Below are positions 4,480 through 21,404 of a stretch of 64,000 bases of DNA, piece after piece (position 1 is the first letter of the stretch; each line of letters begins with the position of its first letter). The translations under genes were made by a program, and so were the position numbers. The DNA is from Bacteroidales bacterium (lineage in GTDB: Bacteria > Bacteroidota > Bacteroidia > Bacteroidales > UBA1715), in assembly GCA_031286165.1 (NCBI GenBank), contig JAITUU010000029.1:1-64000 (forward strand), in the 5' to 3' direction. Under the pieces are notes generated by a model that worked only from the letters and a program-made list of their open reading frames with translations, was not told the DNA's origin and ran no database searches.

Positions 4480-4678
4480 AGTGGTAATTTTTTAGTTAAT
4501 TATTAGGGTTTATTTATACGGTAAATATGCGCTTTATTTTTTAAGAAATCATGTTTTTGAATCTGTTTTTGCGCATATTTTTACATAAAAAAAAGCAGAC
4601 TTCACGTTCGCAAAATCCACTTTTTTAAACAATCAACTCGTTATTTCAGAGCAAATTACAATATTTCAATTCAAGTAT
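4480..4678 (-). other. AT-rich spacer between mreB and rubredoxin
   Basis: No gene is visible. It must hold the end of the mreB transcript and probably the rubredoxin promoter, but no perfect TAnnTTTG box was found. Confidence 0.35.
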
Positions 4679-5701: not shown

Positions 5702-5786
5702 TGTATGTTAGTTTAAAAGTCTGTATGTCTATCTGTTTGAATATTCAATTATATCTTTAAGTCTATCTATCTAAACATCTACTATT

Positions 5787-7382
5787 TTAGTGTTTAAAGT
5801 GTCTTCGTCCGGTAAATACCATTGCAATGCCGAATTGGTCGCAGGCTTTGATAACGTCTTCATCGCGAATGCTGCCGCCGGGTTGCACTATGTATTTAAT
5901 GTTGTATTCGTTTGCCACCTCCACGCTGTCGCTGAATGGGAAGAAGGCATCGGAAATAAGTACCGATTGTTCTATTACCGCAGCTTCTTTCAAATTGAAA
6001 CGCGGAATGGTGAGCCAGCGCAAACTGTCCAAACGGTTGGGCTGCCCCATACCTGCGCCGGTGAGCCAATAGGAACCGTCAGCCGTTTGCGAAACAAGCG
6101 CAATGGCGTTACTTTTCAAATGTTTGCCTGCTTGCGTGCCAAATTTCGCTAAATCTATTTGCGTTGGGGTAAATTGTTTTTGCGTTACCGGTTTGTACTC
6201 GGTGTCAAGCCCTTCGTCTTCGTCTTGCACCAGCAAACCGCCATTGATGGAGCGATAGAGTTTTTCACCGGTAATTTCGGGTTTGATAGGAGTTACCAAC
6301 ACGCGCAAATTTTTCTTTTTCGCCAAAATTTCGAGGGCTTCCGCCGAATATGCCGGTGCTATGATAATTTCTACAAACTTATCGCTCAGCCATTTTGCCA
6401 CATCAGCCTCAACCGTTGCTGTAAAACAAAGAATCCCACCAAATGCGCTGATAGGGTCGCCTGCCCATGCAAGTTCCAATGCTTTCATTGCCGTATTGGA
6501 AACTGCTAATCCACAAGGATTTAAGTGTTTCACCACCGACACTGCCACTTTGTCTTTAATATTCGACACAGCATGATAGGCATCGCTGGCGGCTTTCCAA
6601 GCGGCATCGGCATCGAGCATATTGTTGTACGAAAGTTCTTTGCCTTGCAATACTTGCGAATTGGCGAGCGTTGCAGCGTTGTTTGTATTATTGAATTGAT
6701 AGAAGGTTGCTTTTTGATGCGGATTTTCGCCGTAGCGAAGCACCGAACCGTTGCTTACACTGATTTTTTCGGCGGCAGTTTTACTTTCACCTTGATTAAA
6801 GTAATTGAATATTGCAGAATCGTAGTGAGAAGATGTATTAAATGCCTCACGAGCAAATAATTTACGGTCATCAATTGAAGTAGTACCTTTCTTGCTTTCG
6901 AGCAATGAATCTAAGGTTGCATATTGCTGTTTCGATGCTACAATTACTACATCTTTAAAATTTTTCGCAGCAGCACGAATAAGTGAAATTCCACCAATGT
7001 CGATTTTTTCTATCACATCTTGTTCGGCAGCACCCGAAGCAACAGTTGCTTCAAACGGATACAAATCCACAATCACCAAATCTATTTCAGGTATTTCATA
7101 TTCAGCGAGTTGTGCCTTATCACCTGCATTATCTCTTCGGGCTAAAATACCGCCAAAAACTTTTGGGTGGAGGGTTTTTACTCGTCCACCCAGAATAGAA
7201 GGGTAACTTGTAAGATTTTCTACCGGAAGCACTGCACAACCCAACGTTTCCAAAAAGTCCTGAGTTCCACCTGTGGAATAAAACGTAACACCTAAGTCTT
7301 TCAGTTTCAGAACAATACTATCAAGTCCGTCTTTGTAATACACTGAAATCAACGCTGATTTAATTTGTTTTTCTGTATTCAT
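5787..7382 (-). CDS. purH: Bifunctional AICAR transformylase / IMP cyclohydrolase
   Basis: A 531-residue cytoplasmic enzyme catalysing the last two steps of purine synthesis: 10-formyl-THF-dependent formylation of AICAR, then closure to IMP. The N-terminal MGS-like cyclohydrolase domain shows STGGTQDFLETLG and GGRVKTLHPKVFGGIL. The C-terminal transformylase domain begins near RYGENPHQKA and contains VVKHLNPCGLAV, which carries the catalytic Lys-His pair. The protein ends FTGRRHFKH, a very conserved PurH C-terminus. The length is normal. A leftward TATATTTG box at 7410-7403 lies 21 bases before the start, and mreB follows on the same strand. Confidence 0.97.
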   Translation of the reverse strand: MNTEKQIKSALISVYYKDGLDSIVLKLKDLGVTFYSTGGTQDFLETLGCAVLPVENLTSYPSILGGRVKTLHPKVFGGILARRDNAGDKAQLAEYEIPEIDLVIVDLYPFEATVASGAAEQDVIEKIDIGGISLIRAAAKNFKDVVIVASKQQYATLDSLLESKKGTTSIDDRKLFAREAFNTSSHYDSAIFNYFNQGESKTAAEKISVSNGSVLRYGENPHQKATFYQFNNTNNAATLANSQVLQGKELSYNNMLDADAAWKAASDAYHAVSNIKDKVAVSVVKHLNPCGLAVSNTAMKALELAWAGDPISAFGGILCFTATVEADVAKWLSDKFVEIIIAPAYSAEALEILAKKKNLRVLVTPIKPEITGEKLYRSINGGLLVQDEDEGLDTEYKPVTQKQFTPTQIDLAKFGTQAGKHLKSNAIALVSQTADGSYWLTGAGMGQPNRLDSLRWLTIPRFNLKEAAVIEQSVLISDAFFPFSDSVEVANEYNIKYIVQPGGSIRDEDVIKACDQFGIAMVFTGRRHFKH

Positions 7383-7402
7383 TTCGTTATTTTTTTGCGT
7401 TG

Positions 7403-7410
7403 CAAATATA
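7403..7410 (-). promoter_or_regulatory. -7 box of purH
   Basis: TATATTTG read leftward, 21 bases upstream of the purH ATG. No convincing -33 partner was seen. Confidence 0.45.
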
Positions 7411-7549
7411 TAATTTTTATGAGTTTATGTATGGTGCAAGAGGTAAAATTATTTTAATTTTTTGCACTGATTTTTTTTGCCGATTTCTTTCTTCGGTGCA
7501 ACAATCAACAAAAATATATAATTCGCTGAAAATCAATTACTTATATTTA

Positions 7550-8515
7550 CTAAAAGAACATGGTTTTCCCTACGAACACATTGCTGCCTTCGACGACTTC
7601 TTGCTTTTTGTTGATTTTATTCAATTGAGCAAGTTTTTGCACTTTTACAGCATAGAGTTGTGCTATGGAATGGAGGGTTTCTCCGGCAGCAACCGTGTGT
7701 GAAACGTATGGTTTTTCGGCTTTCGCGCGTTTTGCTTCTATATATACCACATCGCCGGGGTTCAAAGAATCACCTTGCTGTAAATCATTGAAAGAGAATA
7801 ATTTCCACACAGGCATTGAAAGTTTTTGTGCAAGCGAAAATAGTGTTTCTCCGTCTTGCAAAATTACATATTCCACGTTATTGTTTTCATACACACTGCG
7901 TCCGTTAATAGCGCGTATGGCTTTGTTGAGCGCAAGGTTAGGCGGCGCAAGCGTAGGATTTGGAGCCGTGCCTTTTACTTTTTCCACTTCGTCTGCTTTT
8001 GCCACAGGTGCATTCATTGTATCGTATTTATGCAATTCGTGGTCTTCTATAATTTTTATAAGCATTTGCGCATACTGCGGATTGGTAGCGTAGCCCGCTT
8101 TTTTCAAGCCGTGCGCCCAATTTTTATAATCGGTTTTTTCGTATGAAAAAAGCGTAGCATAACGCGGTCCGTTTTTAATAAATTCCGAATGGTCTTTGAA
8201 GGATTCCGTAGCAGTGGGATACACGCGGAAACACTCGTTTTTCTCGTCATCATCGTGAACTACGCGCTTTCCCTGCCACGAACCGTAGCATTTTATGCCA
8301 AAATGATTGTTGCTTTTGCGCGTAAGTTCGCTATTACCATCACCCGATTCCAAACACGCCTGAGCAAGTGTAATACTCGCCGGAATACCCGTGCGGTGCA
8401 TTTCGGAAACGGCAATCGAAGCAAATTGTTCAATGTATTCAATGCGCGACACACGCTGCCCAAAAGCCGCACACGCACACGCAATCAACAATACTACACT
8501 AACAAAACGCTTCAT
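7550..8515 (-). CDS. Exported LysM glucosaminidase (peptidoglycan hydrolase)
   Basis: About 321 residues. A signal peptide ([20 protein letters not shown]) is followed by a GH73-type glucosaminidase domain: [19 protein letters not shown] holds the expected catalytic Glu, and [12 protein letters not shown] and [11 protein letters not shown] are typical of the FlgJ/AcmA fold. Two LysM repeats follow at the C-terminus, [19 protein letters not shown] and [19 protein letters not shown], which bind glycan strands. It should cleave N-acetylglucosamine-MurNAc bonds during growth or cell separation. An alternative ATG four codons upstream (8527) is possible; MKRF gives the better signal peptide. A TATTTTTG box at 8551-8544 supports a start close to here. 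Confidence 0.9.
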
Positions 8516-8630
8516 ATATCGGTACACTTCTTACAATATGGTGCAAAAATACTGATTTTTCTCATAGCATTTTTTGACGAATCTCAAAAAACTATTCACA
8601 AGTTATTAAACTCTCATTTGCCAAAAATAG

Positions 8631-8638
8631 TATATTTG
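8631..8638 (+). promoter_or_regulatory. -7 box of the small HTH gene
   Basis: TATATTTG, 27 bases before the ATG at 8666. No clear -33 element. Confidence 0.45.
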
Positions 8639-8665
8639 CTTACTAATTTTAAAAACTCAAACACT

Positions 8666-8845
8666 ATGACAACAGAAGAAAAAGTATTGGAAGCCATGCG
8701 CAAAGCAGGCGAAGCCTTGAATGCCGGCAAAATAGCCGAACTCACAGGCATCGACAAAAAAGAAGTGGAAAAAGCCATGAATAAACTCAAAGCAAGCGGC
8801 GCAATAGTGTCGCCAAAACGCTGCTATTGGAGTCCGGCAAAGTAA
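8666..8845 (+). CDS. Small winged-helix-like protein
   Basis: A 59-residue basic protein, [20 protein letters not shown] at its start, then a helix-turn-helix pattern ([20 protein letters not shown]) and a possible wing ending [11 protein letters not shown]. The layout resembles a minimal winged helix of the MarR/ArsR kind used to recognise DNA, but no sensor domain is present. It is monocistronic: its own -7 box lies upstream and a strong terminator begins 19 bases after the stop. It could be a transcription factor, a nucleoid-type protein or a partner subunit; the targets are unknown. Confidence 0.8.
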
Positions 8846-8863
8846 TTACAATTCACTTCAAGT

Positions 8864-8906
8864 AAAAACGCTCAAATTACACATTGTGTGTAATTTGAGC
8901 GTTTTT
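8864..8906. terminator. Strong bidirectional terminator
   Basis: An uninterrupted 20-bp stem around a 3-base TTG loop: AAAAACGCTCAAATTACACA pairs with the matching right arm ending GCGTTTTT. The A and T tracts on both sides let it serve the HTH gene (rightward) and panB (leftward), which converge here. Confidence 0.92.
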
Positions 8907-8925
8907 ATTTCAACTAATTTCTACG

Positions 8926-9750
8926 TTAATATTGTTCGCTTTGATTGGGGAAATCGCACGCTTTTACGTCGGCAATGTATGAAGACACTGCGCCGGTAAT
9001 TTCATCGAATAAATTATGATAGCGGCGCAAAAATCGTGGCGAAAAATTTTTATTTATTCCCAACATATCGTGCAACACAAGCACTTGACCATCCACGCCA
9101 CCGCCGGCACCAATACCTATTACCGGAATTTTCAAATTTCGGGCAACTTTAATACCCAGCGCGGCAGGAATTTTTTCGAGCACTATGCCAAAGCACCCGG
9201 CTTCTTCCAGCGCAATGGCATCTTCCACAAGTTTTTCCGCTTCAAGTTTTTCTTGCGCGCGCACTGCGTAAGTACCAAATTTATTGATAGATTGCGGCGT
9301 TAAACCCAAGTGCCCCATTACCGGAATACCAGCACTTAAAATTCGCGTAACCGATTCTATGATTTCTTGTCCTCCTTCTATTTTTACCGCACTGCACCCG
9401 GTTTCTTTCATAATACGAATAGCGGAATTAAGTGCCTCGCGCGAATTACCCTGATAAGAACCAAAAGGCAAATCGCACACCACCAAACTGCGTTTTACGG
9501 CTCGCTGCACCGATGCGGCGTGATAAATCATTTGGTCTAAGGTGATGGGTAGTGTGGTAACGTGCCCTGCCATGACATTCGATGCCGAATCGCCCACCAA
9601 AATAACATCAATACCGGCTTTATCTAAAATTGAGGCAAAGGAATAATCATACGCTGTGAGCATAGAAATTTTTTCACCACGCTGTTTCATTTCTACAAGT
9701 GTGCGCGTAGTTACCACTCGCGACCCAATATTTCCTTCTACTGACGACAT
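8926..9750 (-). CDS. panB: Ketopantoate hydroxymethyltransferase
   Basis: A 274-residue cytoplasmic enzyme that adds a hydroxymethyl group from 5,10-methylene-THF to 2-oxoisovalerate, giving ketopantoate, the first committed step of pantothenate and CoA synthesis. Family motifs: [32 protein letters not shown] (metal-binding Asp), [19 protein letters not shown], and [20 protein letters not shown] with the catalytic region near its end. The length is standard. It is transcribed divergently from cysS with overlapping promoter space and ends at a shared terminator. No other pan gene is adjacent. Confidence 0.97.
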
Positions 9751-9781
9751 AAAGAGAATGTTTACTATGTTTTTAATGGAA

Positions 9782-9829
9782 CAAAACTACGAAGTTTTTT
9801 TTTAATAACTAAAAATTCTCATACCTTTG
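9782..9829. promoter_or_regulatory. Divergent promoters of panB and cysS
   Basis: A leftward TAGTTTTG (9789-9782) faces panB and a rightward TACCTTTG (9822-9829) faces cysS. The -33 positions are poly-T/A and do not match the consensus well. Confidence 0.5.
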
Positions 9830-9848
9830 CGAAAAAAACAGTGTAATT

Positions 9849-11318
9849 ATGCAACAAGTAACTATTTACAATACCGCAACGCGCAAAAAAGAAGAGTTTA
9901 CACCAATAAATGCGCCGCATGTGGGAATGTACGTGTGTGGACCTACGGTGTATGGCGAGGCGCATTTAGGGCACGCTCGTCCGGCTATTACTTTCGATAT
10001 TTTGTTTCGTTACCTGCAACATATAGGCTACAAAGTGCGCTACGTGCGCAATATTACCGATGTGGGGCACTTGGAAAATGATGCCGACAGCGGCGAAGAT
10101 AAGATTGCAAAAAAAGCACGATTGGAAGAATTAGAACCTATGGAAGTAGTTCAGCATTACACGATTAACTATCACTACTGTATGCGACACTTGAACGTGC
10201 TTCCGCCGAGTATAGAACCTCGCGCTTCGGCGCACATTATAGAGCAACAGGATTATGTGCAGCGCATTTTGAATAGCGGCTTTGCCTACGAATCGCAAGG
10301 TTCGGTGTATTTCGATGTAGAAAAATACAACAAGAAACACCCCTACGGCATTCTTTCGGGGCGAAATATAGACGATATGCAATCGAACACGCGCAATTTA
10401 GACGGACAAGACGAAAAACACGGTTCGCTCGATTTCGCGCTGTGGAAAAAAGCAAAACCCGAACACATTATGCAGTGGAAATCGCCATGGAGTAAAGGAT
10501 TTCCGGGTTGGCACTTAGAGTGCTCGGCTATGGGCGAAAAATATTTGGGCAAAGAGTTCGACATTCACGGTGGCGGTATGGATTTACTCTTTCCGCACCA
10601 TGAGTGCGAAATTGCACAATCTACGGCGGCAAACGGAAAATCGGCGGTGCGCTATTGGATTCATAACAATATGATTACTATCAACGGGCAAAAAATGGGC
10701 AAATCGCTCGGTAATTTTATTACGCTGGCAGAACTATTTGCGGGCACGCACCCCTTGCTCGAACAAGCCTATTCGCCCATGACCATTCGTTTTTTTATTC
10801 TGCAAGCGCACTATCGCAGCACGCTTGATTTCTCGAACGAAGCACTGCAAGCCGCGCAAAAAGGCATGGAAAAACTCCTGCAATCCATAGACGTAATTGA
10901 AAAACTACCCACAGCAGCCACAAGCACTATCAACGTGGCAGAATTGGAGCAAAAATGCTATGCCGCGCTCAATGACGATTTGAACACACCCATTCTTATA
11001 TCACACCTATTCGTTGCCCTGCGCGAAATTCAATCTATTGCCAACGGCAGCGGCAGCATTACCGCCGAAGATAAAGAAAAACTTACAGAATTATACAAAA
11101 CATTCATATTCGATATTCTGGGTTTACAACCGGCATTAAATCAATCAAGCGATGCGCACGCCGAAATTCTGAAAGGAACAATAGATATGTTGCTCGAAAT
11201 GCGCTTGCAAGCAAAGCAACAGAAAGATTTTGCAAAATCCGATGAAATTCGCAACAAATTAACCGCACTTGGCGTAACGGTGAAAGATACCAAAGACGGT
11301 TTTGAGTGGAGTTTGTAG
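9849..11318 (+). CDS. cysS: Cysteinyl-tRNA synthetase
   Basis: A 489-residue class I aminoacyl-tRNA synthetase that charges tRNA-Cys. Seen: [19 protein letters not shown] with the zinc ligand Cys30 and the HIGH-type HLGH at 39-42; GWHLECSAM and [11 protein letters not shown] with further zinc ligands; and KMGKSLGNF, the KMSKS loop. The C-terminal helical domain (about 330-489) contacts the tRNA. Start and length are as expected, and the TACCTTTG box is 19 bases upstream. It converges with porB, leaving only 10 bases between the stop codons. Confidence 0.97.
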
Positions 11319-11328
11319 CGGCATGATT

Positions 11329-12231
11329 TTACACACTTCGCCACAATCGCCGCATTCGCTCCCATTTTCTGTCGCGCATTTCTTCTATATGTTCAATGTC
11401 GTGCGCCTGCAAGTGTTTAAACCGACCTTGACTTCGTAAATACTTTTCCACAGAAGTAAATGTTTTGGGATTTCTATTGAGAGTAAATTCATCACATTCA
11501 TATTCGGCTAAATACCACAATCCACAATCCACCACTTCTTTGGCAATATTGACGGTGGTATTGCTCGCCACACCCCAACCGGTAGGACAAGGTGCGTACA
11601 CGTGTATATACGAAGTTCCCTCCACCTGCGAGGCTTTCTGTATTTTATTGATAAAATCCTGCAAATAGCCCACACTCGCTGTGGCGGCGTAGTCTATGCC
11701 GTGTGCGGCAACTATTTCAAACATATTTTTTTTGTGCGTAACGCTTCCGCGAATATTTTCTCCGGCAGGTGTAGTAGTAGTTTTTGCACCAAAGGGTGTC
11801 AATCCGCTTTTTTGAATACCGGTATTCATATAGGCTTCATTGTCGTAGCATATATATATCACCTTATCGCGGCGGTCTATGGCTCCCGAAAGTGCTTGAA
11901 TACCAATATCGGCAGTACCGCCATCGCCGGCAATTCCCACTACATGAAAATTATTGAGTTTGAGTGCTTTTGCTCCGGCGGCTATGCCCGAAAGCATAGA
12001 TGCAGTGCCGGGAAAAGTGGAAATAATGGCATTACCTGTAAAACAGAGTTGCGGATAAATAAATCCCACTGCCGACATACAACCTGCAGGAATAGCGGTA
12101 AACGTGCGTTCGCCCAGCACTTTTAAAATATGACGCACCGCCAAACTGCCGCCGCAACCGGCACAGGCTTTGTGTCCGTAGAAAAACTCGCGGTCGGTAA
12201 TACTGCGGGCAGTTATTTTAGTGGTATTCAT
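11329..12231 (-). CDS. porB: 2-oxoacid:ferredoxin oxidoreductase, beta (TPP) subunit
   Basis: About 300 residues. This subunit binds thiamine pyrophosphate and a [4Fe-4S] cluster and carries out the oxidative decarboxylation of a 2-oxoacid to acyl-CoA. Seen: HKACAGCGGSLAVRH (cluster cysteines), VGIAGDGGTADIGIQAL and YDNEAYMNTGIQKSG (the GDG...N thiamine motif), FGAKTTTTPAG, and YIHVYAPCPTGWG with a further cluster Cys. The pattern fits the pyruvate or 2-oxoisovalerate branch rather than the fused one-chain pyruvate enzyme common in Bacteroidota. MNTTKI starts 4 bases after porA; an ATG at 12243 overlapping the porA stop is the alternative. It is the last gene of the ten-gene run. Confidence 0.9.
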   Translation of the reverse strand: MNTTKITARSITDREFFYGHKACAGCGGSLAVRHILKVLGERTFTAIPAGCMSAVGFIYPQLCFTGNAIISTFPGTASMLSGIAAGAKALKLNNFHVVGIAGDGGTADIGIQALSGAIDRRDKVIYICYDNEAYMNTGIQKSGLTPFGAKTTTTPAGENIRGSVTHKKNMFEIVAAHGIDYAATASVGYLQDFINKIQKASQVEGTSYIHVYAPCPTGWGVASNTTVNIAKEVVDCGLWYLAEYECDEFTLNRNPKTFTSVEKYLRSQGRFKHLQAHDIEHIEEMRDRKWERMRRLWRSV

Positions 12232-12235
12232 TGCG

Positions 12236-13429
12236 TTAGTCATTTGTTGCAACATTTAGGTTTAAAAACTCTACTATATTTTGCTCTGTATCATTAGTTT
12301 TCGATATTTTTTTGAGCGTAGAAAACAGTTCTCGAATAGATTCTTTGGAAATATCTCTACCGCCAAGTCCGGCAATAAAATTGTGCGTAGGAATATGCGT
12401 ATTGCCCCTACTCAAAGCCGAATTGACGTTGGTAAACACCGTGCCCTCAAAACCGAAAGAAATATCGCGGTCTATAACACCAATTGCTCGCGCGTGGCGC
12501 GTAATTTTCACAATTTCTTCTTCGGGGAAGGGGCGCATAAAGCGGATTTTGAGCACGCCTACCCTCCACCCTTCTTTACGCAATTCGTCTGCCACCACGC
12601 GGCATGTGCCGGTAGTACTGCCCAAACTTATTACAATCAATTCCGCATCTTCGCAGCGATAGGCATCCACAAGTCCACCGTAGGAACGCCCAAACGTTTG
12701 CGCGAAGCGAGAATCAATATTGCGAATTACCTGTTTTGCGTGCAATATTGCATGGTGTTGTTGATATTTGAACTCTGTATTGTCGGACGGTTGCGAACTG
12801 AATGCCAGATTTTTAGGATTATCCAAATCCATTTTGTAGGGAGTTTCAAACGGCGGCAAAAAAGCATCGACTTCTTCTTGTAAAGGAAGTTCCACCAATT
12901 CGTAGGTATGCGTAAGCGTAAAACCATCTAAATTGAGCATTACAGGCGTAAGTACGTCCAAATTCTCGGCAAGAGCGAAGGATTGAATCACCATATCGAG
13001 GCTTTCCTGCGCATCTTCTACATACACTTGAATCCAACCCGAATCCAACTGCGAAAGCGAATCGCGGTGGTCGCCATAGATACTCCAAGGAAGGGCAAGC
13101 GAACGGTTGGCGTTCATCATCACAATAGGAAATCGCCCGCCCGAAGCATAGTGCAAGCACTCAGCCATGTAGAGCAATCCCTGCGACGAAGTAGCGGTAA
13201 ACGTGCGAGCACCCACCGCACTCGCGCCTATGCAGGCAGAAAGCGCAGAATGTTCCGACTCCACGTGCAAAAATTCCGATTGCAAACTACCGTCTTCCAC
13301 CATTTCCGAAAGTCGCTCTACGGCAACGGTTTGCGGTGTAATAGGGTAGGCGGCTATCACATGCGGACGGCTTAACCGCACGCCTTCGGCTACGGCATCA
13401 TTGCCCGATATAAATGCGTTTCTCTTCAT
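12236..13429 (-). CDS. porA: 2-oxoacid:ferredoxin oxidoreductase, alpha subunit
   Basis: A 397-residue subunit carrying the pyrimidine-binding half of the thiamine site. VIAAYPITPQTVAVERLSEM is the PITP motif, EFLHVESEHSALSACIGAS holds the catalytic-site Glu, and ARTFTATSSQGLLYMAECL and PIVMMNANRSLALPWSIYGD are typical of archaeal-type PorA. A transketolase C-terminal fold follows (about 260-360). The start MKRNAFISGND lies 2 bases after the porD stop; a longer frame upstream would run through porD and is rejected. The substrate is uncertain between pyruvate and longer 2-oxoacids. Confidence 0.92.
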   Translation of the reverse strand: MKRNAFISGNDAVAEGVRLSRPHVIAAYPITPQTVAVERLSEMVEDGSLQSEFLHVESEHSALSACIGASAVGARTFTATSSQGLLYMAECLHYASGGRFPIVMMNANRSLALPWSIYGDHRDSLSQLDSGWIQVYVEDAQESLDMVIQSFALAENLDVLTPVMLNLDGFTLTHTYELVELPLQEEVDAFLPPFETPYKMDLDNPKNLAFSSQPSDNTEFKYQQHHAILHAKQVIRNIDSRFAQTFGRSYGGLVDAYRCEDAELIVISLGSTTGTCRVVADELRKEGWRVGVLKIRFMRPFPEEEIVKITRHARAIGVIDRDISFGFEGTVFTNVNSALSRGNTHIPTHNFIAGLGGRDISKESIRELFSTLKKISKTNDTEQNIVEFLNLNVATND

Positions 13430-13431
13430 AC

Positions 13432-13734
13432 TTATCTTTTTTCGGGTATCATAGTAATTGCTTTTGCTGCACACACTTCGGCGCAAATACCGCAGCCTTT
13501 GCAGTAATCGAAATCGAAATCTACCGCGCCGGTGATTTTGAAAACCGTAGCTTCGGGGCAGTACATATAGCATTGATAGCACAAAGTACATCGCTCCGCT
13601 ACCAACACCGGACGTTCGCTGCGCCAACCGGCATTGGTAGAAGTAAGAAAACCCGCACGAAACGCAGGTCCTACGGGGTAATCGCTAATATGTTTCGGAG
13701 AATTGAAGTGCTGTACGGTTGGTCTGTTGCTCAT
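13432..13734 (-). CDS. porD: 2-oxoacid:ferredoxin oxidoreductase, delta (2x[4Fe-4S] ferredoxin) subunit
   Basis: A 100-residue ferredoxin-like subunit that passes electrons from the catalytic subunits to free ferredoxin. Two full 4Fe-4S motifs are visible, CTLCYQCYMYCPE (about 49-61) and CKGCGICAEVCAAKA (about 78-92), after an N-terminal extension of the kind that packs against the alpha subunit in PorD. It is 98 bases from porC, and that gap contains a promoter, so porD-porA-porB may also be made as a separate transcript. The gap to porA is 2 bases. Confidence 0.93.
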   Translation of the reverse strand: MSNRPTVQHFNSPKHISDYPVGPAFRAGFLTSTNAGWRSERPVLVAERCTLCYQCYMYCPEATVFKITGAVDFDFDYCKGCGICAEVCAAKAITMIPEKR

Positions 13735-13759: not shown

Positions 13760-13807
13760 CAAAAATAGGTTGCGCTACTGAGTGCTACAATACCGCATTG
13801 AGGGTAT
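13760..13807 (-). promoter_or_regulatory. Internal promoter of porDAB with TACC-N8-GGTA inverted repeat
   Basis: Leftward -7 box TATTTTTG (13767-13760), ATTG about 19-20 bases upstream, and just beyond it ATACC-N8-GGTAT (13790-13807). The block closely resembles the promoter at the head of the same gene run (21065-21110), including the bases flanking both -7 boxes (CC before, TT..CATACA after). Confidence 0.65.
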
Positions 13808-13832
13808 TTGCGCGGGCAGTATGTTCCGGAAT

Positions 13833-14369
13833 TTATGTTAAAAGAGCGGCAATCACCGCAGGTATTATCTGTTTATTTTTCTCCAAAATAGCACCGTTCA
13901 TGTAATTTTCCAACGCCAAAATCAAGGCTTCAACACTCACAATATCCGAAATTCCCGATAATGCCGCCAGCATAGCCGTATTGGTAATAGGGCGACCAAG
14001 AATTTCCAACGCAATGCGCGAGGCATCTACGGTAAAAAGTTGTGAAGAATTGTAGGCGGCATATAATTCTTTATTGCCGGTGTTGAGAATTACGCGCCCG
14101 TGTGGACTGAGGTCATTGAAAAACGCGGGATTGAACAAAGTTTCGTCTAACACCACCACGTAGTCGCAAGTGTGCACTTCGCTGCGGTCGTAAATTTTCG
14201 TATCGTCTATTTTTACAAAGGCGAGCACCGGTGCGCCACGCCGTTCCGGTCCGAAGGAAGGAAAGGCAAGTGCTTGTTTTCCGCCATACATAGCAACTGC
14301 TTCGCCGAGTAATTTTGCTGCGGTAAAGGCTCCTTGTCCGCCTCTGCCGTGAAATCGAACTGTTATCAT
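13833..14369 (-). CDS. porC: 2-oxoacid:ferredoxin oxidoreductase, gamma subunit
   Basis: A 178-residue gamma subunit, which completes the heterotetramer and helps bind CoA. MITVRFHGRGGQGAFTAAKL is the family's glycine-rich opening, followed by GKQALAFPSFGPERRGAPV, also highly conserved. The start at 14369 forms an ATGA overlap with the stop of the upstream aminotransferase, implying translational coupling; an in-frame ATG three codons earlier exists. The gamma-delta-alpha-beta gene order is that of archaeal and Thermotoga pyruvate oxidoreductases. Confidence 0.92.
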   Translation of the reverse strand: MITVRFHGRGGQGAFTAAKLLGEAVAMYGGKQALAFPSFGPERRGAPVLAFVKIDDTKIYDRSEVHTCDYVVVLDETLFNPAFFNDLSPHGRVILNTGNKELYAAYNSSQLFTVDASRIALEILGRPITNTAMLAALSGISDIVSVEALILALENYMNGAILEKNKQIIPAVIAALLT

Positions 14370-15541
14370 TGCTTCCAACTTTTTTGTACTTTCTCGCGCA
14401 ACGTTTGCAATCTATCCAACGCCGCTTGCAAGGTTTCTTCGTTTTTGGCAAAATGGAACCGAATTAAATGGTGCACATTGCCGCGAAAGAAACTCGAACC
14501 GGGCACTGCCGCCACGCCTACTTCGCGAGCGAGCCATTCGCAAAATGCCACGTCATCGCTTACGCCAAACTCCGACACATCTACCATTACATAATAGGCA
14601 CCTTGCGGAGTGGTGTATTTCAACCCCAACTCATCTAATCCTTTCAGAAAAAAATCGCGCTTGCGGGTGTAGTGTTCCTGCAACTCTCGGTAATATTCTT
14701 CGCCAAAGTTGAGTGCGGTAACGGCAGCCTCTTGCAGGGGCGCGGCGGCACCTACGGTGAGGAAATCGTGCACCTTGCGTATGCCCTCCGTGATATGCGG
14801 CGGCGCAATCACATAACCCAATCGCCAGCCGGTGATGGAGTAGGTTTTGGAAAGCGAACTGCACGAAATGGTGCGGTCTGCCACGCTGGGAAGCGAAGCA
14901 AAATAAACGTGCGTATGTGGTTCATACACAATGTGTTCATATACCTCATCGGCAATCACAAACACATCGTATTTAATGGCAAGGTCGGCAATGAGTTGCA
15001 ACTCTTCGCGCGTAAACACTTTTCCCGTAGGATTGGACGGATTGCAGAGAATCAACGCTTTGGGGTGTTGGCGAAACGCCGCCTCCAACTCTTCCGCCAC
15101 AAAACCAAAATCGGGCGGATTGAGGTGTACATAAATCGGTTCTGCGCCCGAAAGAATGGCATCGGCACCGTAATTTTCGTAAAACGGCGAAAACACAATG
15201 ACTTTGTCGCCCGGATTGGTAACGGTAAGCATGGTGGCAATCATAGCCTCCGTGCTGCCGCACGTAACCACAATCTGCGTGTCGGGATTAATCTCGATGC
15301 CCATCAAGCGCGACTGCTTGCGTGCCAACGCTTGGCGTAAATTGGCAGCCCCCCACGTTACGGCGTATTGGTGAATACTCCCCTCGGCAACGGTTTTCAA
15401 GGCATCTTTCAGTGCCGCAGGCGGGTCAAAATCAGGAAATCCCTGCGAGAGATTGACTGCACCATATTGATTGGCAATCCGCGTCATTCGGCGAATGACC
15501 GAATCGGTAAAATGTTCTATTCGTTTGCTTAATGTTGGCAT
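14366..15541 (-). CDS. PLP aminotransferase, class I/II (methionine/aromatic/kynurenine-type)
   Basis: A 391-residue fold-type I aminotransferase. Seen: AVNLSQGFPDFDPP, the HQYAVTWGAANLRQALARK region typical of the YbdL/kynurenine aminotransferase branch, NPSNPTGKVFTREEL, VIADEVYEHIVY (Asp to the pyridine nitrogen, Tyr to the cofactor), SSLSKTYSITGWRLGYVI (Schiff-base Lys), and IRFHFA with the carboxylate-binding Arg. Members of this branch use methionine, aromatic amino acids or glutamine. It lies 5 bases after the acyl-CoA ligase and overlaps porC by 4 bases. The context suggests it makes, or consumes, the 2-oxoacid handled by the oxidoreductase. Confidence 0.92.
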   Translation of the reverse strand: MPTLSKRIEHFTDSVIRRMTRIANQYGAVNLSQGFPDFDPPAALKDALKTVAEGSIHQYAVTWGAANLRQALARKQSRLMGIEINPDTQIVVTCGSTEAMIATMLTVTNPGDKVIVFSPFYENYGADAILSGAEPIYVHLNPPDFGFVAEELEAAFRQHPKALILCNPSNPTGKVFTREELQLIADLAIKYDVFVIADEVYEHIVYEPHTHVYFASLPSVADRTISCSSLSKTYSITGWRLGYVIAPPHITEGIRKVHDFLTVGAAAPLQEAAVTALNFGEEYYRELQEHYTRKRDFFLKGLDELGLKYTTPQGAYYVMVDVSEFGVSDDVAFCEWLAREVGVAAVPGSSFFRGNVHHLIRFHFAKNEETLQAALDRLQTLREKVQKSWKQ

Positions 15542-15546
15542 AATCT

Positions 15547-16896
15547 CTAAATAGTATATGTAAATGACGTTTTTCTATTATCTATCAGTCGTTTCGCCTT
15601 GTGGGTGGCGCGTGGCAGGGTATCGTAATCGTGCACCACCACTTTTTTGGGCTTCACGCCCACGCGAGTTTTGATTTGCGAAGATACAATATCTGCCAGA
15701 ACTTCCTTCGATTCTATGTTGTTAATTGCTTGCTCCACCTCCACAATAAATTTGGTGCTGAAATTTTCGGTAATCGCCGTGATTTGATATTCGCCCGAAA
15801 GTTGCGGAATATTGCGCACCACATACTCTATGTCGCTCGGAAACACGTTCACGCCCGAAACGATGAGCATATCGTCCAAGCGTCCGTCAATGTAGATGCG
15901 CGTGTGGGTACGTCCGCAAGCACAAGGGCGGCGGTCAATGTGTCCTATGTCGCCCGTGCGAAAACGAATCATCGGTCGTGCCGATTTTTTGAGCGTGGTA
16001 AACACCAATTCACCCTGCTCGCCATCGGGCACCGGTTCTTTCGTTTCGGGGTTGATAAGCTCTACCAATATATTGTCTTCTGCCAAATGCAGTCCATTGT
16101 GCTCATCGCAGGCTCCGGCACAAGCACCGAAAATATCGGAAAGTCCGAAAAAGTCATACACCGTTGCGTCCCACAATTTTTCAATGGCATCGCGTGTGGC
16201 AGGAATGGAGCCGCCCGATTCGCCGGCTACAATTATTTTGTTGATAGCCAAATCTTTTGCCGGGTCTATTCCCTGTTTTTTGGCGGTATCGCCCAAATAC
16301 CATGCGTATGAAGGCGTAGTCCAAATCACGGTAGGCTGAAACTCTTTCAGAATAAACAGCAATCTATCCGAAGGAATAGAACCTGCCCAAATACAGAGCG
16401 CACCGAGATTTTGCGCCCCAATTACGTCCGGTCCGCCCACAAAAAGGCTGAAATTGAGCGCGTGCACATAGCGGTCAGTGGGGCGCATACCCATAGCCCA
16501 AAAAAGGCGGCTCTCTACGCTTTGAAAATCATCGAAATCCTGCTTGGTAAAGGGACTGAGCGTAGGCACGCCTGTAGAGCCGCTCGATGCCGACACAAAA
16601 ACCACCTCCTCTTCGCTCACGGCAAGCATATTGCCGAGCAACGGCTTTTTCTGTTGTTGTTCGCGCTCCACTTGTTTGTTGATAAACGGAAATTTGCGCA
16701 AATCGCTCAACTCCTTGAAATCTTCGGGCGAAACGCCTGCTTGGTCGAAGGCTTCTTTGTAATAGACCGAATGGTGGTAGGCAAAGGTCAAATGCTCTTT
16801 GAGCAATCGGGTTTGCAGTTTGTCCAACTCCGGGCGCGGAAGGGTTTCCAACGCTTCGTCCCAAAATTTTTTGTACTCTTTTTTTTCTGTTGTCAT
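15547..16896 (-). CDS. paaK: Phenylacetate-CoA ligase-type acyl-CoA synthetase
   Basis: A 449-residue adenylate-forming enzyme of the PaaK family, which joins an aryl or short acid to CoA using ATP (giving AMP and PPi). Seen: VFVSASSGSTGVPTL (P-loop), YDFFGLSDIFGACAGACDEH, MIRFRTGDIGHIDRRPCACG with the Arg-Asp pair and zinc-type Cys cluster, RLDDMLIVSGVNVFPSDIE (hinge) and a C-terminal Lys-rich cap (LPRATHKAKRL). In Bacteroidota and archaea such ligases often lie beside 2-oxoacid oxidoreductases, where they allow acid to acyl-CoA to 2-oxoacid by reductive carboxylation, or recycling of acyl-CoA. It lies 26 bases after metI, in line with the importer genes. The acid used is not deducible. Confidence 0.9.
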   Translation of the reverse strand: MTTEKKEYKKFWDEALETLPRPELDKLQTRLLKEHLTFAYHHSVYYKEAFDQAGVSPEDFKELSDLRKFPFINKQVEREQQQKKPLLGNMLAVSEEEVVFVSASSGSTGVPTLSPFTKQDFDDFQSVESRLFWAMGMRPTDRYVHALNFSLFVGGPDVIGAQNLGALCIWAGSIPSDRLLFILKEFQPTVIWTTPSYAWYLGDTAKKQGIDPAKDLAINKIIVAGESGGSIPATRDAIEKLWDATVYDFFGLSDIFGACAGACDEHNGLHLAEDNILVELINPETKEPVPDGEQGELVFTTLKKSARPMIRFRTGDIGHIDRRPCACGRTHTRIYIDGRLDDMLIVSGVNVFPSDIEYVVRNIPQLSGEYQITAITENFSTKFIVEVEQAINNIESKEVLADIVSSQIKTRVGVKPKKVVVHDYDTLPRATHKAKRLIDNRKTSFTYTI

Positions 16897-16922
16897 TGTG
16901 TTCTCTTTTTATAAATCGTCAT

Positions 16923-17588
16923 TTATTTTTTCTCTGCTTTTTTTGCCGAAAAATCGCCCAAACTTTGCAGAATTTGCACCAAAATAATGAGTAATACTAC
17001 GGTGATAATCATTACATCGGTTTGATAGCGGTAGTATCCGTAGCGGATAGCCAAATCGCCCACACCGCCGCCGCCCACAATACCCGCCATTGCCGAATAT
17101 CCCACCAAACTAATGGCGGTAATGGTCAATCCGCGCAGTAAACCGCCTAAGGCTTCGGGAAAAAGCACGTCTTTTATGATTTGGAAATGAGTTGCTCCCA
17201 TAGCCGTAGCCGCTTCTATCACTCCTTTATCTACTTCGTGCAAGGCACTTTCTACCAAGCGAGCATAGAATGCCACAGCCACTATGCCCAGCGGCACCGA
17301 TGCCGCCACAGGTCCTATGGAAGTACCCACCACCAATCGCGTGAAAGGGAGCAAAAGCACCAGCAAAATCACAAAAGGTGTGGAACGAATGATATTCACC
17401 AAAAATCCTCCCAAAAGATTCAATAAGCGATTTTGCCAAAAAAGTCCTCTGCCGGTAATAAATAATAGCGTGCCAAGCGGAATGCCTATTACAATGGCTA
17501 ACGCGAGCGAAATTCCGCACATTAAAAATGTTTCGTTGAAGGCAACAATCAAGTTGTCTATCAGTTCTGTGTAATTGGTATTAGCCAT
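16923..17588 (-). CDS. metI: Methionine-type ABC importer, permease
   Basis: A 221-residue inner-membrane permease with five to six hydrophobic segments, e.g. FLMCGISLALAIVIGIPLG and FVILLVLLLPFTRLVVG. The EAA loop that contacts MetN is VIEAATAMGATHFQIIKDVLFPEALGG (about 125-151). It overlaps metN by 8 bases. In the family it imports L- or D-methionine, but related NlpA-type systems move other amino acids or dipeptides, and here the downstream genes are catabolic rather than Met-biosynthetic. Confidence 0.93.
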   Translation of the reverse strand: MANTNYTELIDNLIVAFNETFLMCGISLALAIVIGIPLGTLLFITGRGLFWQNRLLNLLGGFLVNIIRSTPFVILLVLLLPFTRLVVGTSIGPVAASVPLGIVAVAFYARLVESALHEVDKGVIEAATAMGATHFQIIKDVLFPEALGGLLRGLTITAISLVGYSAMAGIVGGGGVGDLAIRYGYYRYQTDVMIITVVLLIILVQILQSLGDFSAKKAEKK

Positions 17589-18588
17589 GTAGCACCTCCA
17601 CTTTGTATGTTTTTTCTTTCAAATAATTGAGCACTTGTTCTGCTTCGGCGTGTTCGCCCACTATTTGCACCACCAGCACTCCAAAGGGTTTTCCGCCAAT
17701 GTATTCTATCTTTCCGTGCAGTATATTCAGGTCTATATTAAATTTTTGCACTGTTTCCGAAATAATTGCATGTTCGGCATGGTCGCCGTTATACACAATT
17801 TTCACTAAGGGATTTTTGCAATTTTCTACAATGCGCGTGGGCAAATCGAGATTCAGTGTGCGATTGACAAGCGATTGGGTAAACGGATGTAGCGGTGAAG
17901 CAAACACCGAAAACACATCGCCCAATTCGAGCAATTCTCCTCCGCTCATTACCGCTACGCGATTGGCTATTTTTTTCACCACCTCCATTTCGTGGGTTAT
18001 GAGCACTATGGTAATTCCCAACCGGCGATTGATTTCTTGCAAAAGAGCGAGAATAGAATCGGTAGTTTCGAGGTCGAGAGCCGAAGTTGCTTCGTCGCAC
18101 AGCAGGATTTGCGGATTGTTCACTATGCCGCGAGCAATTCCCACCCGCTGTTTTTGTCCGCCACTCAGTGTGGAAGGATACACCGAAGCCTTATCGGTAA
18201 GTCCTACCAATTCCAATGCTTCATACACACGAGTAGAGATTTCGGCACTGCTTTTTCCTGCCACTTTCATGGCAAATGCCACGTTTTCAAACACTGTTTT
18301 GGTATGAATCAAGTTAAACTGCTGAAAAATCATACCAATAGAAATGCGCAACGTGCGCAGCGCATCGCCTTGCAAATGAGTAACATCGTGCCCATCTATG
18401 AGCACTCGTCCGCTTGTGGGGCGTTGCAGTAAATTTATAGTACGGAGCAGGGTACTTTTCCCTGCTCCGCTGGTTCCCACTATACCAAATATTTCACCTT
18501 TCTCTATACGGAATGATACATTTTTTACCGCATCTACCGCGCTTTTTTTGTGCTGAAACCGAACACTAATGGTATCAAATTCTATCAT
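17581..18588 (-). CDS. metN: Methionine-type ABC importer, ATPase
   Basis: A 335-residue ATPase. Walker A GIVGTSGAGKSTLLRTINLL, Q-loop near GMIFQQFNL, signature LSGGQKQRVGIARGI, Walker B LLCDEATSALDLET and the switch His in ITHEMEV are all intact. The C-terminal NIL domain (about 260-335; the region ending YIGGKPFGVLVVQIVG) is the regulatory site through which methionine inhibits transport in E. coli MetN, so allosteric control by the substrate is likely. It starts 35 bases after metQ. Confidence 0.96.
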   Translation of the reverse strand: MIEFDTISVRFQHKKSAVDAVKNVSFRIEKGEIFGIVGTSGAGKSTLLRTINLLQRPTSGRVLIDGHDVTHLQGDALRTLRISIGMIFQQFNLIHTKTVFENVAFAMKVAGKSSAEISTRVYEALELVGLTDKASVYPSTLSGGQKQRVGIARGIVNNPQILLCDEATSALDLETTDSILALLQEINRRLGITIVLITHEMEVVKKIANRVAVMSGGELLELGDVFSVFASPLHPFTQSLVNRTLNLDLPTRIVENCKNPLVKIVYNGDHAEHAIISETVQKFNIDLNILHGKIEYIGGKPFGVLVVQIVGEHAEAEQVLNYLKEKTYKVEVLHG

Positions 18589-18623
18589 TGCAGTAAAATA
18601 TTCGGATTAAAAAAATACTTATA

Positions 18624-19502
18624 CTATTTGTTTTGAATACCCCATTTTTCTACATACCACTGCGGACGTTGAAAACTTGCGTAGTCGTATTGCGGATTTT
18701 CCACCACATTGCGAAATTGCTCCGATTGTATGATTTCTTTCACATCGGCAACCCATTGTTTGTCTAAATCGGCAGTACGCACGGCTACAATGTTTTCCGT
18801 TTCGGGCACAAGGTGCTCGTTGGCTATGGCGGTAGAGAGTTTAATGCCGGCAGAAATGGCGTAGTTTCCGCTGATAACTGCCAGAGCCGTACCGTCCAGC
18901 GCACGCGGAAGTTGCGCTGCATCTATCGGTTGAATTTTGAGTTTAAACGGATTTTGTGCAATATCCTTTTCGGTTGCTTGCGTAGGCTCCACGCCTTCTT
19001 TGAGCGTTATCAACCCCAGATTTTGCAGAAAAATCAACGCTCGCGCCAAGTTAGTCGGGTCGTTGGGCAGGGCAAGTGCGGTTCCGGTCTTCTCCGCAGC
19101 CAATTCCGTTTTCAGTTCGCTTATATTCGTTGCTTTCAGCGTGTGCGAATATAATCCGAGCGAAGCCGTAGGGATAGAAATCACCGGAGAGAGGTCGAAA
19201 CCTTTGTCGGCAGCGAATTTTTTCAAATAGCGCGTGTGCTGAAAGATGTTGGCATCAATTTCATTGTTGGCAAGCGCAATGTTTGGCGTAACCCAATCGG
19301 TCAGTTCCACTATTTTTATGGTGTAGCCTTTTGCCTCCAATTCGGGCTGAATAGCGGTTTTGAATAAATCGGAATACGGACCAGGTGCAAAGCCGAAGGT
19401 CAAGGTTTGTTTTTCTTCTGCTTTTTTACTTGTTTGCGAGCACGAAAACATTCCGAATGTCAAAAGTGCTACGACTACTGAGAATAAACTAATTTTTTTC
19501 AT
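18624..19502 (-). CDS. metQ: Methionine-type substrate-binding lipoprotein (NlpA family)
   Basis: A 292-residue periplasmic binding lipoprotein. The signal ends in a lipobox (GMFSC, Cys21). The NlpA-family body shows TLTFGFAPGPYSDLFKTAI, LADWVTP-like ELTDWVTPNIALANNEIDA, NIFQHTRYLKKFAADKG, and the characteristic ALPNDPTNLARALIFLQNLG. In known MetQ proteins these regions surround the methionine side chain. It follows the porin by 44 bases, so outer-membrane entry and periplasmic capture are encoded together. Confidence 0.94.
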   Translation of the reverse strand: MKKISLFSVVVALLTFGMFSCSQTSKKAEEKQTLTFGFAPGPYSDLFKTAIQPELEAKGYTIKIVELTDWVTPNIALANNEIDANIFQHTRYLKKFAADKGFDLSPVISIPTASLGLYSHTLKATNISELKTELAAEKTGTALALPNDPTNLARALIFLQNLGLITLKEGVEPTQATEKDIAQNPFKLKIQPIDAAQLPRALDGTALAVISGNYAISAGIKLSTAIANEHLVPETENIVAVRTADLDKQWVADVKEIIQSEQFRNVVENPQYDYASFQRPQWYVEKWGIQNK

Positions 19503-19546
19503 ATTGTTTAAATATTACATGATTTGTTACTATTTGTTTTTTGTAT

Positions 19547-20857
19547 TTAGAAATAGAATGTGGTTGCAAGAATACCTCTCACGCCCGATGTTTCTTTGGC
19601 GTCTTTCACCTTGCCTTTATCAGCATAATCAACTGTGCCGTAGGCTGCTACGTTGTAATCAACTTCTGCTTGAAAAGCCCATTGTTTATACACATATTTG
19701 AGCGAAGGCGAAATGCGGTACAAGTGGTCAATATTCTGCCAGCGACCGAAGAAATTGCTGCCGCCTGCCAAAATATTGTTGCTAAACCCTAAATTCTTTT
19801 GATAGCCGCCGAATAATCCTACTACCCATGTTTTTCCGTAGGTGGCATGAATCCAATACGAACTTGTGGTAGAAGCCGAGTATTCTTTTGCGCCGGTAGC
19901 GGGGTCTATTTCGGTAACTGCATAACCGCCTTGTTGGAATAGTTCGCTCAAATTTTGTCCGTAAATTGCACTTGCTATTACATTGAATAGGTCTTTTTTA
20001 TAGGTAGCATAGGCTCCAAGTGCATAGGAAGGGAGGGTTACATCGGTAGAGAATTTCTCGCCGGCAGCATTGCTTGTGTAGGTTGCAGGGCGCACTACCT
20101 TATATTCCGAAAGTGCTCCGGCTGAAAACGAAGGAGTTTTGTAATGCACTTGCAAGTGAAAATCGGGAATAGGATTGGAGCGAATGTCGGCACTTTGACT
20201 TGGGTCTAAGGTTGTTTTGTGCTCGGTTTGAAACACGCCGGCAGCCACTACGCTAAGTTTTTCCGTTGGTTTGTAGGTTACACGAATTTGGTCGCCGCGC
20301 CCAAACGGACGGTAGGGGATACCGGTGTGCAATCCGGCAACCGCAGGGAACGGTGTTTCTGCAAGTGGATTCCACGTTTTCCCTATCAACACATCGGCTT
20401 TTTGCCAACTCAATTTTGCCCACGCATGGCGCAAACGCACATTTACCGTATTGCCGCCCGAAAAATCAAATTCAAAGAAAGCACTTGATTTTGCCCCCAA
20501 AAAATCGGGACCGGTGAAGAGTGAATTGAAACGAGTTGCTTGCGTTGATAGATTTTGACGCACTACTTTGTTGAGGTCGTGTCCATTGGCATCGAGCAGC
20601 GGTGCTTCGGGAAAAAATCCGAACAGGTCATCTACCGCACCCACAATTTCGCGATTGTCGATGTAGTATTCGGCACGAACAAATCCGCCGAATTTTGCTG
20701 AAATATTGTTGCCAAGTTTTACCGCAGGCACAAGGTCTTGGGCAGTAGCCGGAGCCTGTTCTTGGGTGGAAGGTTGTGTTGGCGGCGTGGGCGTTTGCGC
20801 CTGTACCGCCGCGCTGCTTAGTGCAGCACATACAAGAAATATAGAAATTTTCTTCAT
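19547..20857 (-). CDS. Outer-membrane beta-barrel porin
   Basis: A 436-residue exported protein: signal peptide (cleavage after AVQAQ), a Pro/Thr/Gln-rich linker (about 22-45), then alternating amphipathic strands from NISAKFGGFVRAEYYIDNRE to the end, closing with the aromatic C-terminus ILATTFYF typical of outer-membrane barrels. The internal WAKLSWQKADVLIGKTWNPL resembles the DcaP/alginate-type trimeric porins. It heads the ten-gene run and is followed immediately by metQ, which suggests a dedicated outer-membrane route for the substrate of the importer. An unusually long (about 200-base), structured leader precedes it. Confidence 0.85.
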   Translation of the reverse strand: MKKISIFLVCAALSSAAVQAQTPTPPTQPSTQEQAPATAQDLVPAVKLGNNISAKFGGFVRAEYYIDNREIVGAVDDLFGFFPEAPLLDANGHDLNKVVRQNLSTQATRFNSLFTGPDFLGAKSSAFFEFDFSGGNTVNVRLRHAWAKLSWQKADVLIGKTWNPLAETPFPAVAGLHTGIPYRPFGRGDQIRVTYKPTEKLSVVAAGVFQTEHKTTLDPSQSADIRSNPIPDFHLQVHYKTPSFSAGALSEYKVVRPATYTSNAAGEKFSTDVTLPSYALGAYATYKKDLFNVIASAIYGQNLSELFQQGGYAVTEIDPATGAKEYSASTTSSYWIHATYGKTWVVGLFGGYQKNLGFSNNILAGGSNFFGRWQNIDHLYRISPSLKYVYKQWAFQAEVDYNVAAYGTVDYADKGKVKDAKETSGVRGILATTFYF

Positions 20858-21057
20858 ACTATTACATTTTTAAAAAGTGATTAAATACCTATAAACTCTC
20901 TTTCGATGAACGCTATGCACAAGAAGAGTTTACAATACAGTGTGTGCAATCCGGAACAATTTTTCCGGCAAAACTATTTCTCAGCGGGCGAAGCCGCACA
21001 TTTGAAAATGGGGGTAAATATTCTGTTTCATACTTGTGTTTTTTTTATGTGTTTTTG
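20858..21057 (-). promoter_or_regulatory. Long structured 5' leader of the porin/met/por run
   Basis: About 200 bases lie between the inferred transcription start (near 21058) and the porin ATG with no gene. It can form at least three local hairpins: GCGG/CCGC (20984-20997), CCGGAA/TTCCGG (20951-20968) and AAACTCT/AGAGTTT (20893-20931). I see no SAM-I, SAM-II or T-box core sequence. It may be an untyped regulatory RNA or a translational control region. Confidence 0.4.
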
Positions 21058-21064
21058 TATGGAA

Positions 21065-21110
21065 CAAATATAGGTGCACCACATTGCTGTAAAATACCAC
21101 AATAAGGGTA
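21065..21110 (-). promoter_or_regulatory. Promoter of the porin/met/por run with TACC-N8-GGTA inverted repeat
   Basis: Leftward -7 box TATATTTG (21072-21065), a TTTT at the -33 position, and TACC-N8-GGTA at 21095-21110 just upstream. The same arrangement and much of the same sequence is present at 13760-13807. Confidence 0.65.
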
Positions 21111-21126
21111 GATTTGAAAAGTCCAC

Positions 21127-21162
21127 AAAAAAACCCTCATAGTAGCAACTATAAGGGTTTTC
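21127..21162 (-). terminator. Rho-independent terminator
   Basis: The arms AAAACCCT-ATAGT and ACTAT-AGGGTTTT pair with one mismatch around a 4-base loop, followed leftward by seven T residues. It lies 20 bases past the broken small gene and insulates it from the porin promoter. Confidence 0.85.
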
Positions 21163-21182
21163 TGTGTTTATTTTTTCAATCG

Positions 21183-21404
21183 TTAGTTCTCATCATCATA
21201 GCAATCGCCGCCCGAAGATGCTCCTAAAATGCTTCCAATCACACGAATTTCTGTTCGGCGGGCTTTGCAAGCGTTGCACGTTTCAGCACTACCACCCGGA
21301 GAGTAGTCATATTCCCAACGGCATCATAAAAAAAAGATTTATGAAAAAACAGCATGAGCAATTAAACACAATAAGGCTATTGTGAAAAGTAGTGCTTTTT
21401 GCAT
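21183..21404 (-). pseudogene. Remnant of a small secreted cysteine-containing peptide gene
   Basis: ATG at 21404 begins a clean signal-peptide-like stretch (MQKALLFTIALLCLIAHAVF) that meets TAA, then TGA seven codons' space later. The same frame continues as CRWEYDYSPGGSAETCNACK and on to GGDCYDDEN before a final stop at 21185-21183, close to a terminator. The break surrounds a run of eight T residues. Signal sequence, in-frame continuation and terminator suggest one 70-odd-codon gene that has been damaged. Alternatives are a sequencing error at the T run or two chance frames. No family recognised. Confidence 0.4.

Follow-up and report, generated by a model that had tools for sequence, protein, structure and literature searches.

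The DNA analyzed here, referred to as the window, is a 64-kb stretch from a Bacteroidales bacterium that belongs to contig 47; the draft genome comprises 2.51 Mb and has a completeness of 98.7%. Its minus strand carries an operon with two promoter-like elements, sites A and B, each of which consists of a TACC-N8-GGTA palindrome followed by a TAnnTTTG box (Table 1). The order is site A, porin, MetQ, MetN, MetI, PaaK-like ligase, aminotransferase, porC, site B, porD, porA and porB. The set of gamma, delta, alpha and beta subunits of a 2-oxoacid:ferredoxin oxidoreductase is complete, and the pyruvate-specific and ketoisovalerate-specific models score below cut-off. The closest solved structure to the aminotransferase is YbdL of Escherichia coli (1u08; E = 2e-81), and model NF006569 gives 363 bits against a cut-off of 420; E. 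coli YbdL is a methionine aminotransferase. Pfam and NCBIfam searches with the porin-like protein gave no match, and its ortholog heads the equivalent operon in a related genome, G071.

Table 1. Elements and genes of the operon in the window.
Feature	Position	Strand	Remarks
Site A palindrome TACCCTTATTGTGGTA (TACC-N8-GGTA)	21110-21095	minus	Predicted operator at operon head
Site A -7 box TATATTTG	21072-21065	minus	Spacer 22 bp from palindrome
Outer-membrane porin-like protein, 436 amino acids	19547-20857	minus	First gene past site A; 'porin' assigned by eye
MetQ/NlpA-family binding lipoprotein	18624-19502	minus	PF03180; MetQ models below cut-off
MetN-like ATPase	17581-18588	minus	Top NCBIfam model TIGR02314, below its cut-off
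MetI-like permease	16923-17588	minus	Top NCBIfam model NF008049, slightly below cut-off
PaaK-like acyl-CoA ligase	15547-16896	minus	
Class I/II aminotransferase, YbdL / methionine-aminotransferase-like	14366-15541	minus	
porC, gamma subunit, 2-oxoacid:ferredoxin oxidoreductase	13833-14378	minus	TIGR02175 above cut-off
Site B palindrome TACCCTCAATGCGGTA	13806-13791	minus	Predicted operator in porC-porD gap
Site B -7 box TATTTTTG	13767-13760	minus	Spacer 23 bp from palindrome
porD, delta (ferredoxin-like) subunit	13432-13734	minus	TIGR02179 above cut-off; first gene past site B
porA, alpha subunit	12236-13429	minus	PF01855 and PF17147; probable start 13429, listed open reading frame starts 13627
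porB, beta subunit	11329-12255	minus	PF02775; PorB models below cut-off

A first-pass annotation had described the palindrome 22-23 bp before the box at both promoters, within a long alignment containing one single-base gap, with a common CC before the box and a CATACA context after it, and these observations are borne out. In a local alignment, A and B share 43 identical positions over 59 columns, interrupted by one single-base gap; the aligned stretch takes in the CC preceding the box and the TT.CATACA following it. Both boxes are exact matches to the TAnnTTTG -7 element of Bacteroidota sigma-A promoters. TACC-N8-GGTA is found in the window at A and B only, whereas boxes number 102. A weight matrix built from the genomic sites other than A and B gave B a score of 39.1 and A one of 32.4, compared with 24.7 for the next independent window position and a maximum of 13.7 in shuffled windows. 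The third-best matrix match, TACCGTAAACGCAGTATTTTCC at 28671 (minus), has a spacer of 24 and an imperfect box.

The whole genome was scanned with TACC-N8-GGTA-N(20-26)-TAnnTTTG, the reversed pattern serving as the control. Seventeen occurrences were found compared with none for the control, which disposes of the random frequency that the annotation had named as grounds for refutation. The spacer is exactly 23 bp in 16 of the 17 sites, site A having 22. A mismatch-tolerant search adds plausible sites before hemC-cysG, a NifH-like gene, a prismane-family gene and metY. The outer TACC/GGTA form a 16-bp palindrome, usually followed by T, with inner bases TACCYY...RNGGTAT; over 21 sites, a pyrimidine at position 6, a purine at position 11 and T at position 17 occur in 21/21, although the few relaxed sites were selected with T at 17 required. 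The best explanation of this pattern is that A and B represent two predicted operators of a genome-wide regulon of about 20 mostly sulfur-acquisition genes with a nearly fixed geometry. The annotation was thus right that unrelated intergenic DNA should not align in this way, and its proposal of one regulator at both promoters remains the best-supported reading; the cause, however, would be a genome-wide regulon and not a local relation.

Sites are located before the sulfate-reduction, cysteine-synthesis and organosulfur genes that a sulfur-assimilation regulon is expected to share. Genes with family support directly downstream of a site encode CysD; CysN then CysH; a Pst-like ATPase and, after it, a sulfite reductase carrying a TusA domain at its C terminus; CysK (C29) as well as a pair of CysK-like proteins (C2); MetY (the O-acetylhomoserine/O-acetylserine sulfhydrylase); a C-S lyase of the PatB family; for sulfonate transport, an SsuC/TauC-like permease together with a binding protein of the SsuA family; a DsrE2-like protein with an adjoining TusA-like frame; PstC/PstA-like permeases; and PstS-like binding proteins. 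A site also precedes the genes for hydroxymethylbilane synthase joined to uroporphyrinogen methyltransferase and synthase, which belong to the synthesis of siroheme, the cofactor of sulfite reductase, and another precedes those for a ThiS-like protein (by eye) and MoeB/ThiF. On sequence grounds, the downstream genes appear to be a sulfur-acquisition set with exceptions, which are considered below. Pst-like ATP-binding cassette transporter genes (L133:7898-8764, L135:8592-10503, L128:5483-6448, L136:6075-6998, L183:7570-11435 and L184:8141-12597) have regulon sites in this genome, and in G006 and G193 they form part of clusters with cysK-cysH or sulfhydrylase genes; their sites and this placement suggest the import of sulfate rather than phosphate. 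At L133:5510-7858 a sulfite/nitrite-reductase-type protein is fused to a C-terminal TusA sulfur-carrier domain.

One further site lies upstream of a cluster (G000:C27, ∼4460-13409; L137) containing NifH-like, NifB-like (by eye), sulfhydrylase-like (by eye), two nitrogenase-component-1-like, cystathionine-lyase-like and cystathionine-beta-synthase-like genes. Methylthio-alkane reductase (Mar) releases methanethiol for methionine salvage (PMC12552129). The cluster is Mar-like in that NifH-like, two component-1-like and sulfhydrylase/lyase-type genes stand behind one regulon site, and its gene content makes Mar or a related sulfur-salvage system possible; it may instead encode a true nitrogenase or an isethionate-type enzyme (PMC11423573).

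Since mostly sulfur genes lie behind the other sites, the window operon is best read as serving methionine/sulfur scavenging, that is, the uptake of methionine and its conversion to cysteine, and not central pyruvate metabolism. In G071, one contig carries the regulator gene described below, a site, the porin gene, metQNI and the ligase gene, with the regulator gene divergent from the operon ortholog and the site, conserved in position with site A (L181:4868, minus), in between. A second contig carries the genes for the ligase and aminotransferase, porCDAB, and then cystathionine-beta-synthase-like, methyltransferase-like and cystathionine-lyase-like genes (names by eye), an arrangement that is also present in G160. 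The window set has the same four subunits in the same gamma-delta-alpha-beta order as the known pyruvate/2-oxoacid:ferredoxin oxidoreductase PorCDAB. Unlike the standard set, however, it is located inside a methionine-uptake operon with sulfur-regulon sites and, in the relatives, is followed by cystathionine-beta-synthase-like and cystathionine-lyase-like genes. Its substrate may be a methionine-derived 2-oxoacid, either 2-oxobutyrate or 4-methylthio-2-oxobutyrate.

The comparison with orthologous loci suggested by the annotation separates the two sites. Conservation of site B was sought via porC orthologs in 24 genomes, which were found only in G071 and G160; in both, site B is absent and porC and porD overlap by 4 bp, leaving no room for a promoter, so that site B seems to have been gained in the lineage of the window. 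The internal promoter before porDAB that the annotation had proposed is accordingly retained as the best-supported reading of this regulon-type site in the porC-porD gap, as a putative lineage-specific promoter. An Rfam scan of the window for a riboswitch in the long leader after site A matched only a tRNA. Between site A and the porin gene, the leader contains a 16-codon open reading frame, MKQNIYPHFQMCGFAR, with Met and Cys codons (21031-20981, minus), which is possibly a leader peptide and possibly due to chance. Upstream of site A (∼21120-21300, minus), an apparent OmpA-type gene tail and a terminator-like hairpin closely resemble the region that precedes the CRP gene on contig 16 (L028 ∼690-870, G000:C16); hisIE, crp and a dipeptidase gene are adjacent in relatives, so the junction upstream of site A seems rearranged. 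Elsewhere in the window, positions 40001-52000 have a GC content of 0.32-0.35 compared with ∼0.44 in the surroundings and were possibly acquired horizontally.

Reading of the stretches around the sites revealed a candidate regulator outside the window, a 213-amino-acid protein with a LuxR-type helix-turn-helix (HTH) encoded at G000:C37:13186-13824, directly upstream of metY with a site between the two genes. The C-terminal GerE/LuxR HTH scores 58.4 bits with PF00196 (cut-off 23.5) and the N-terminal receiver 24.7 bits with PF00072, under the cut-off of 30.2; full-length solved relatives are VraR, RcsB and NarL. The complete phosphorylation pocket (two acids, Asp, Ser/Thr and Lys) is lacking: in the clear orthologs Asp, Ser and Lys are retained and the second acidic position is Asn, Thr or another residue. 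Nearly all of them also retain a Cys ahead of the HTH. No kinase gene adjoins the clear orthologs at the loci that were read; one adjoins a weaker homolog in G149 (by eye). Its sequence places the protein among LuxR-HTH proteins whose receiver is atypical rather than among typical response regulators. Atypical receivers that function without phosphorylation are known (PMC4395418), and the candidate may respond to phosphorylation, a metabolite or a thiol. This metY-linked LuxR/NarL-type protein is the best regulator candidate for the sites.

The candidate was then followed through 247 genomes of the order, with E at or below 4e-37 defining a clear ortholog; 17 genomes, including that of the window, contain one. 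The orthologs adjoin cysK, metY-like or patB-like genes in seven genomes (G129, G223, G026, G166, G160, G169 and G136), and weaker homologs in G006 and G193 adjoin cysK, cysD, sulfhydrylase and Pst-like genes with TACC-N8-GGTA palindromes. The palindrome precedes the main cysK in 15/17 genomes with the ortholog compared with 0/9 without it (Fisher p = 1.8e-5; 2.7e-5 excluding the genome of the window). All 15 cysK sites have a spacer of 23: nine are exact, two have one mismatch, two have two mismatches, and two combine a perfect palindrome with a poor box. In 1200 trials with shuffled sequence, a cysK-type site with at most one mismatch was never reached. Any site at all is present in 15/17 genomes with the ortholog and 82/230 without it (Fisher p = 2.4e-5). 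G004, G112 and G195, which share the family of the window's genome, have neither the ortholog nor sites, and the same holds for the close relative G247, except for one overlapping pair in G112.

A second flavour of palindrome, TACCTA-N4-TAGGTATTG, also with 23-bp spacing, is found in other genomes of the order before feoAB and RIC/hemerythrin-type genes (L059, L060-L062, L066, L068, L074-L076 and L079). It has the look of a second regulon under a paralogous regulator, and the LuxR paralog adjoining RIC in G223 is a candidate for the latter. In G248 (L120, L122 and L125), three near-identical perfect palindromes, TACCGCATTTGCGGTA, one of them inverted inside, have the same spacing; this draft of only 1.6 Mb has no clear regulator ortholog, which could reflect another factor or a missing gene.

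Taken together, A and B are probably operators of a sulfur-acquisition regulon that the metY-linked regulator would bind, activating transcription under cysteine or reduced-sulfur shortage. The grounds are the sites, their geometry, the gene set, and the co-occurrence and synteny of the regulator, from which we infer binding, activation rather than repression and a sulfur-limitation signal. In a mapped flavobacterium TAnnTTTG spans -12 to -5 (PMC9723704), so the centre of the 16-bp palindrome would lie near -43.5, and the palindrome would directly adjoin, on the upstream side, the -33 region of a sigma-A-type promoter. The nearly fixed spacing argues for contact with the polymerase, and hence for activation. 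Most likely, a dimer of the regulator would occupy the palindrome and activate from about -43.5 when cysteine or reduced sulfur is short; site A would then turn on the full operon for methionine uptake and breakdown, and site B would provide an extra entry for porDAB in this lineage. Several observations weigh against this reading. The spacing is the sole ground for preferring activation to repression. The ortholog is present and the cysK site absent in G015 and G019, and conversely the pattern matches at least once in 82 genomes that lack an ortholog, for which the feoAB/RIC flavour accounts at least partly. The Fisher tests ignore relatedness; counted by family, the cysK site occurs in 10/11 compared with 0/7. 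Finally, the sites before TolQ/ExbB-like, leucine-rich-repeat (by eye) and prismane-family genes have no obvious sulfur role downstream.

The similarity of A and B could also have arisen without any regulon, through a recent duplication of A, the promoter cassette that the annotation had offered as its other option. A and B do rank second among 210 site pairs; however, they tie with the top pair, which is located at two unrelated loci, B is nearly as close to C41b and C14b as to A, and when the site-B stretch is compared with the rest of the genome, its best DNA match falls at the hemC site rather than at A. This equal similarity at unrelated loci, together with the geometry common to 17 sites, refutes duplication as the sole explanation; the cassette is not needed, and a site B with no regulon behind it is highly improbable. 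It is scarcely credible that the element is an extended housekeeping promoter with no dedicated regulator: TAnnTTTG is the general promoter element of the phylum (PMC9723704), but the full element occurs in only 17 places, mostly before sulfur genes, compared with the 102 boxes in the window, and its presence follows the regulator gene across families.

If a dedicated regulator is accepted, its identity must still be weighed. The first candidate was a CRP/FNR-family activator at a class II position, which a palindrome near -43 resembles, and the genome encodes one such protein (C16:20433-21110), the only one above the PF13545 cut-off. Orthologs with the same recognition helix, however, occur in G247 (76% identical) and G004 (61%), both of which lack the sites, and the candidate was rejected on that account; furthermore, the genes that flank it (hisIE and a dipeptidase gene) have no connection with sulfur and its own gene is not preceded by a site, so that this assignment is very unlikely. 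CymR is the cysteine regulator of Firmicutes, which would favour an Rrf2-family (CymR/IscR-like) protein, but the highest PF02082 score in the genome is 16.6 bits, below the cut-off of 30. Rrf2 regulation was rejected for this reason, and its probability is minimal, given that the absence of the gene from a draft of this completeness is possible but unlikely. The binding of the sites by another LuxR-HTH paralog is unlikely to a lesser degree. Further LuxR-type proteins are present in the genome, and the feoAB/RIC palindrome with its same spacing and the paralog beside RIC in G223 show a related arrangement; however, the two flavours are set apart by their gene content, inner bases and synteny, and the cysK site tracks the metY-linked ortholog.

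The metY-linked candidate resembles NarL/NarP of E. coli in its LuxR-type (GerE) HTH and in a 16-bp inverted repeat TAC...GTA with a 7-2-7-like layout. NarL, which binds a 7-2-7 inverted repeat, can activate ogt from a position at -44.5 that abuts the promoter (PMC7419079), and the regulon palindrome would be centred near -43.5. Unlike NarL/NarP, the genes concern sulfur and not nitrate, the inner bases are TACCYY...RNGGTAT, the receiver lacks the second acidic residue and no kinase gene adjoins the clear orthologs at the loci read. Compared with the NarL consensus TACYYMT-N2-AKRRGTA, the outer TACC/GGTA and the 16-bp length agree, and the inner positions do so partly. Control of sulfate assimilation, cysteine synthesis and organosulfur uptake by one factor is familiar from CysB and CymR; these are LysR-type and Rrf2-type, respectively, whereas the candidate here is of the LuxR/NarL type. 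No description of a sulfur-assimilation regulator in Bacteroidales, or of this regulator or motif, was found among the open-access papers that were searched, although work elsewhere could exist, and a literature search for a Bacteroides or LuxR-type sulfur regulator gave nothing relevant. A single-factor sulfur regulon is therefore of a known kind; the regulator family, operator and promoter geometry would be new in Bacteroidales. A broader proposal is advanced only tentatively, as more doubtful than probable: a new LuxR/NarL-type family, with a degenerate receiver (DN-Q for DD) and a conserved Cys before the HTH, may be the sulfur master regulator of many Bacteroidales families, sensing cysteine or reduced sulfur itself without a partner kinase and activating via a NarL-like 7-2-7 palindrome 23 bp from the -7 box.

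Bacteroidales is a dominant gut order. A short motif and a regulator candidate, found before cysK in about ten families, would provide a testable switch for the use of cysteine, methionine and organosulfur compounds. Instead of serving central pyruvate metabolism, as presumed, the por operon would belong to methionine/sulfur scavenging, and sulfur supply would be linked to nitrogenase-like genes and to Pst-like transport genes.

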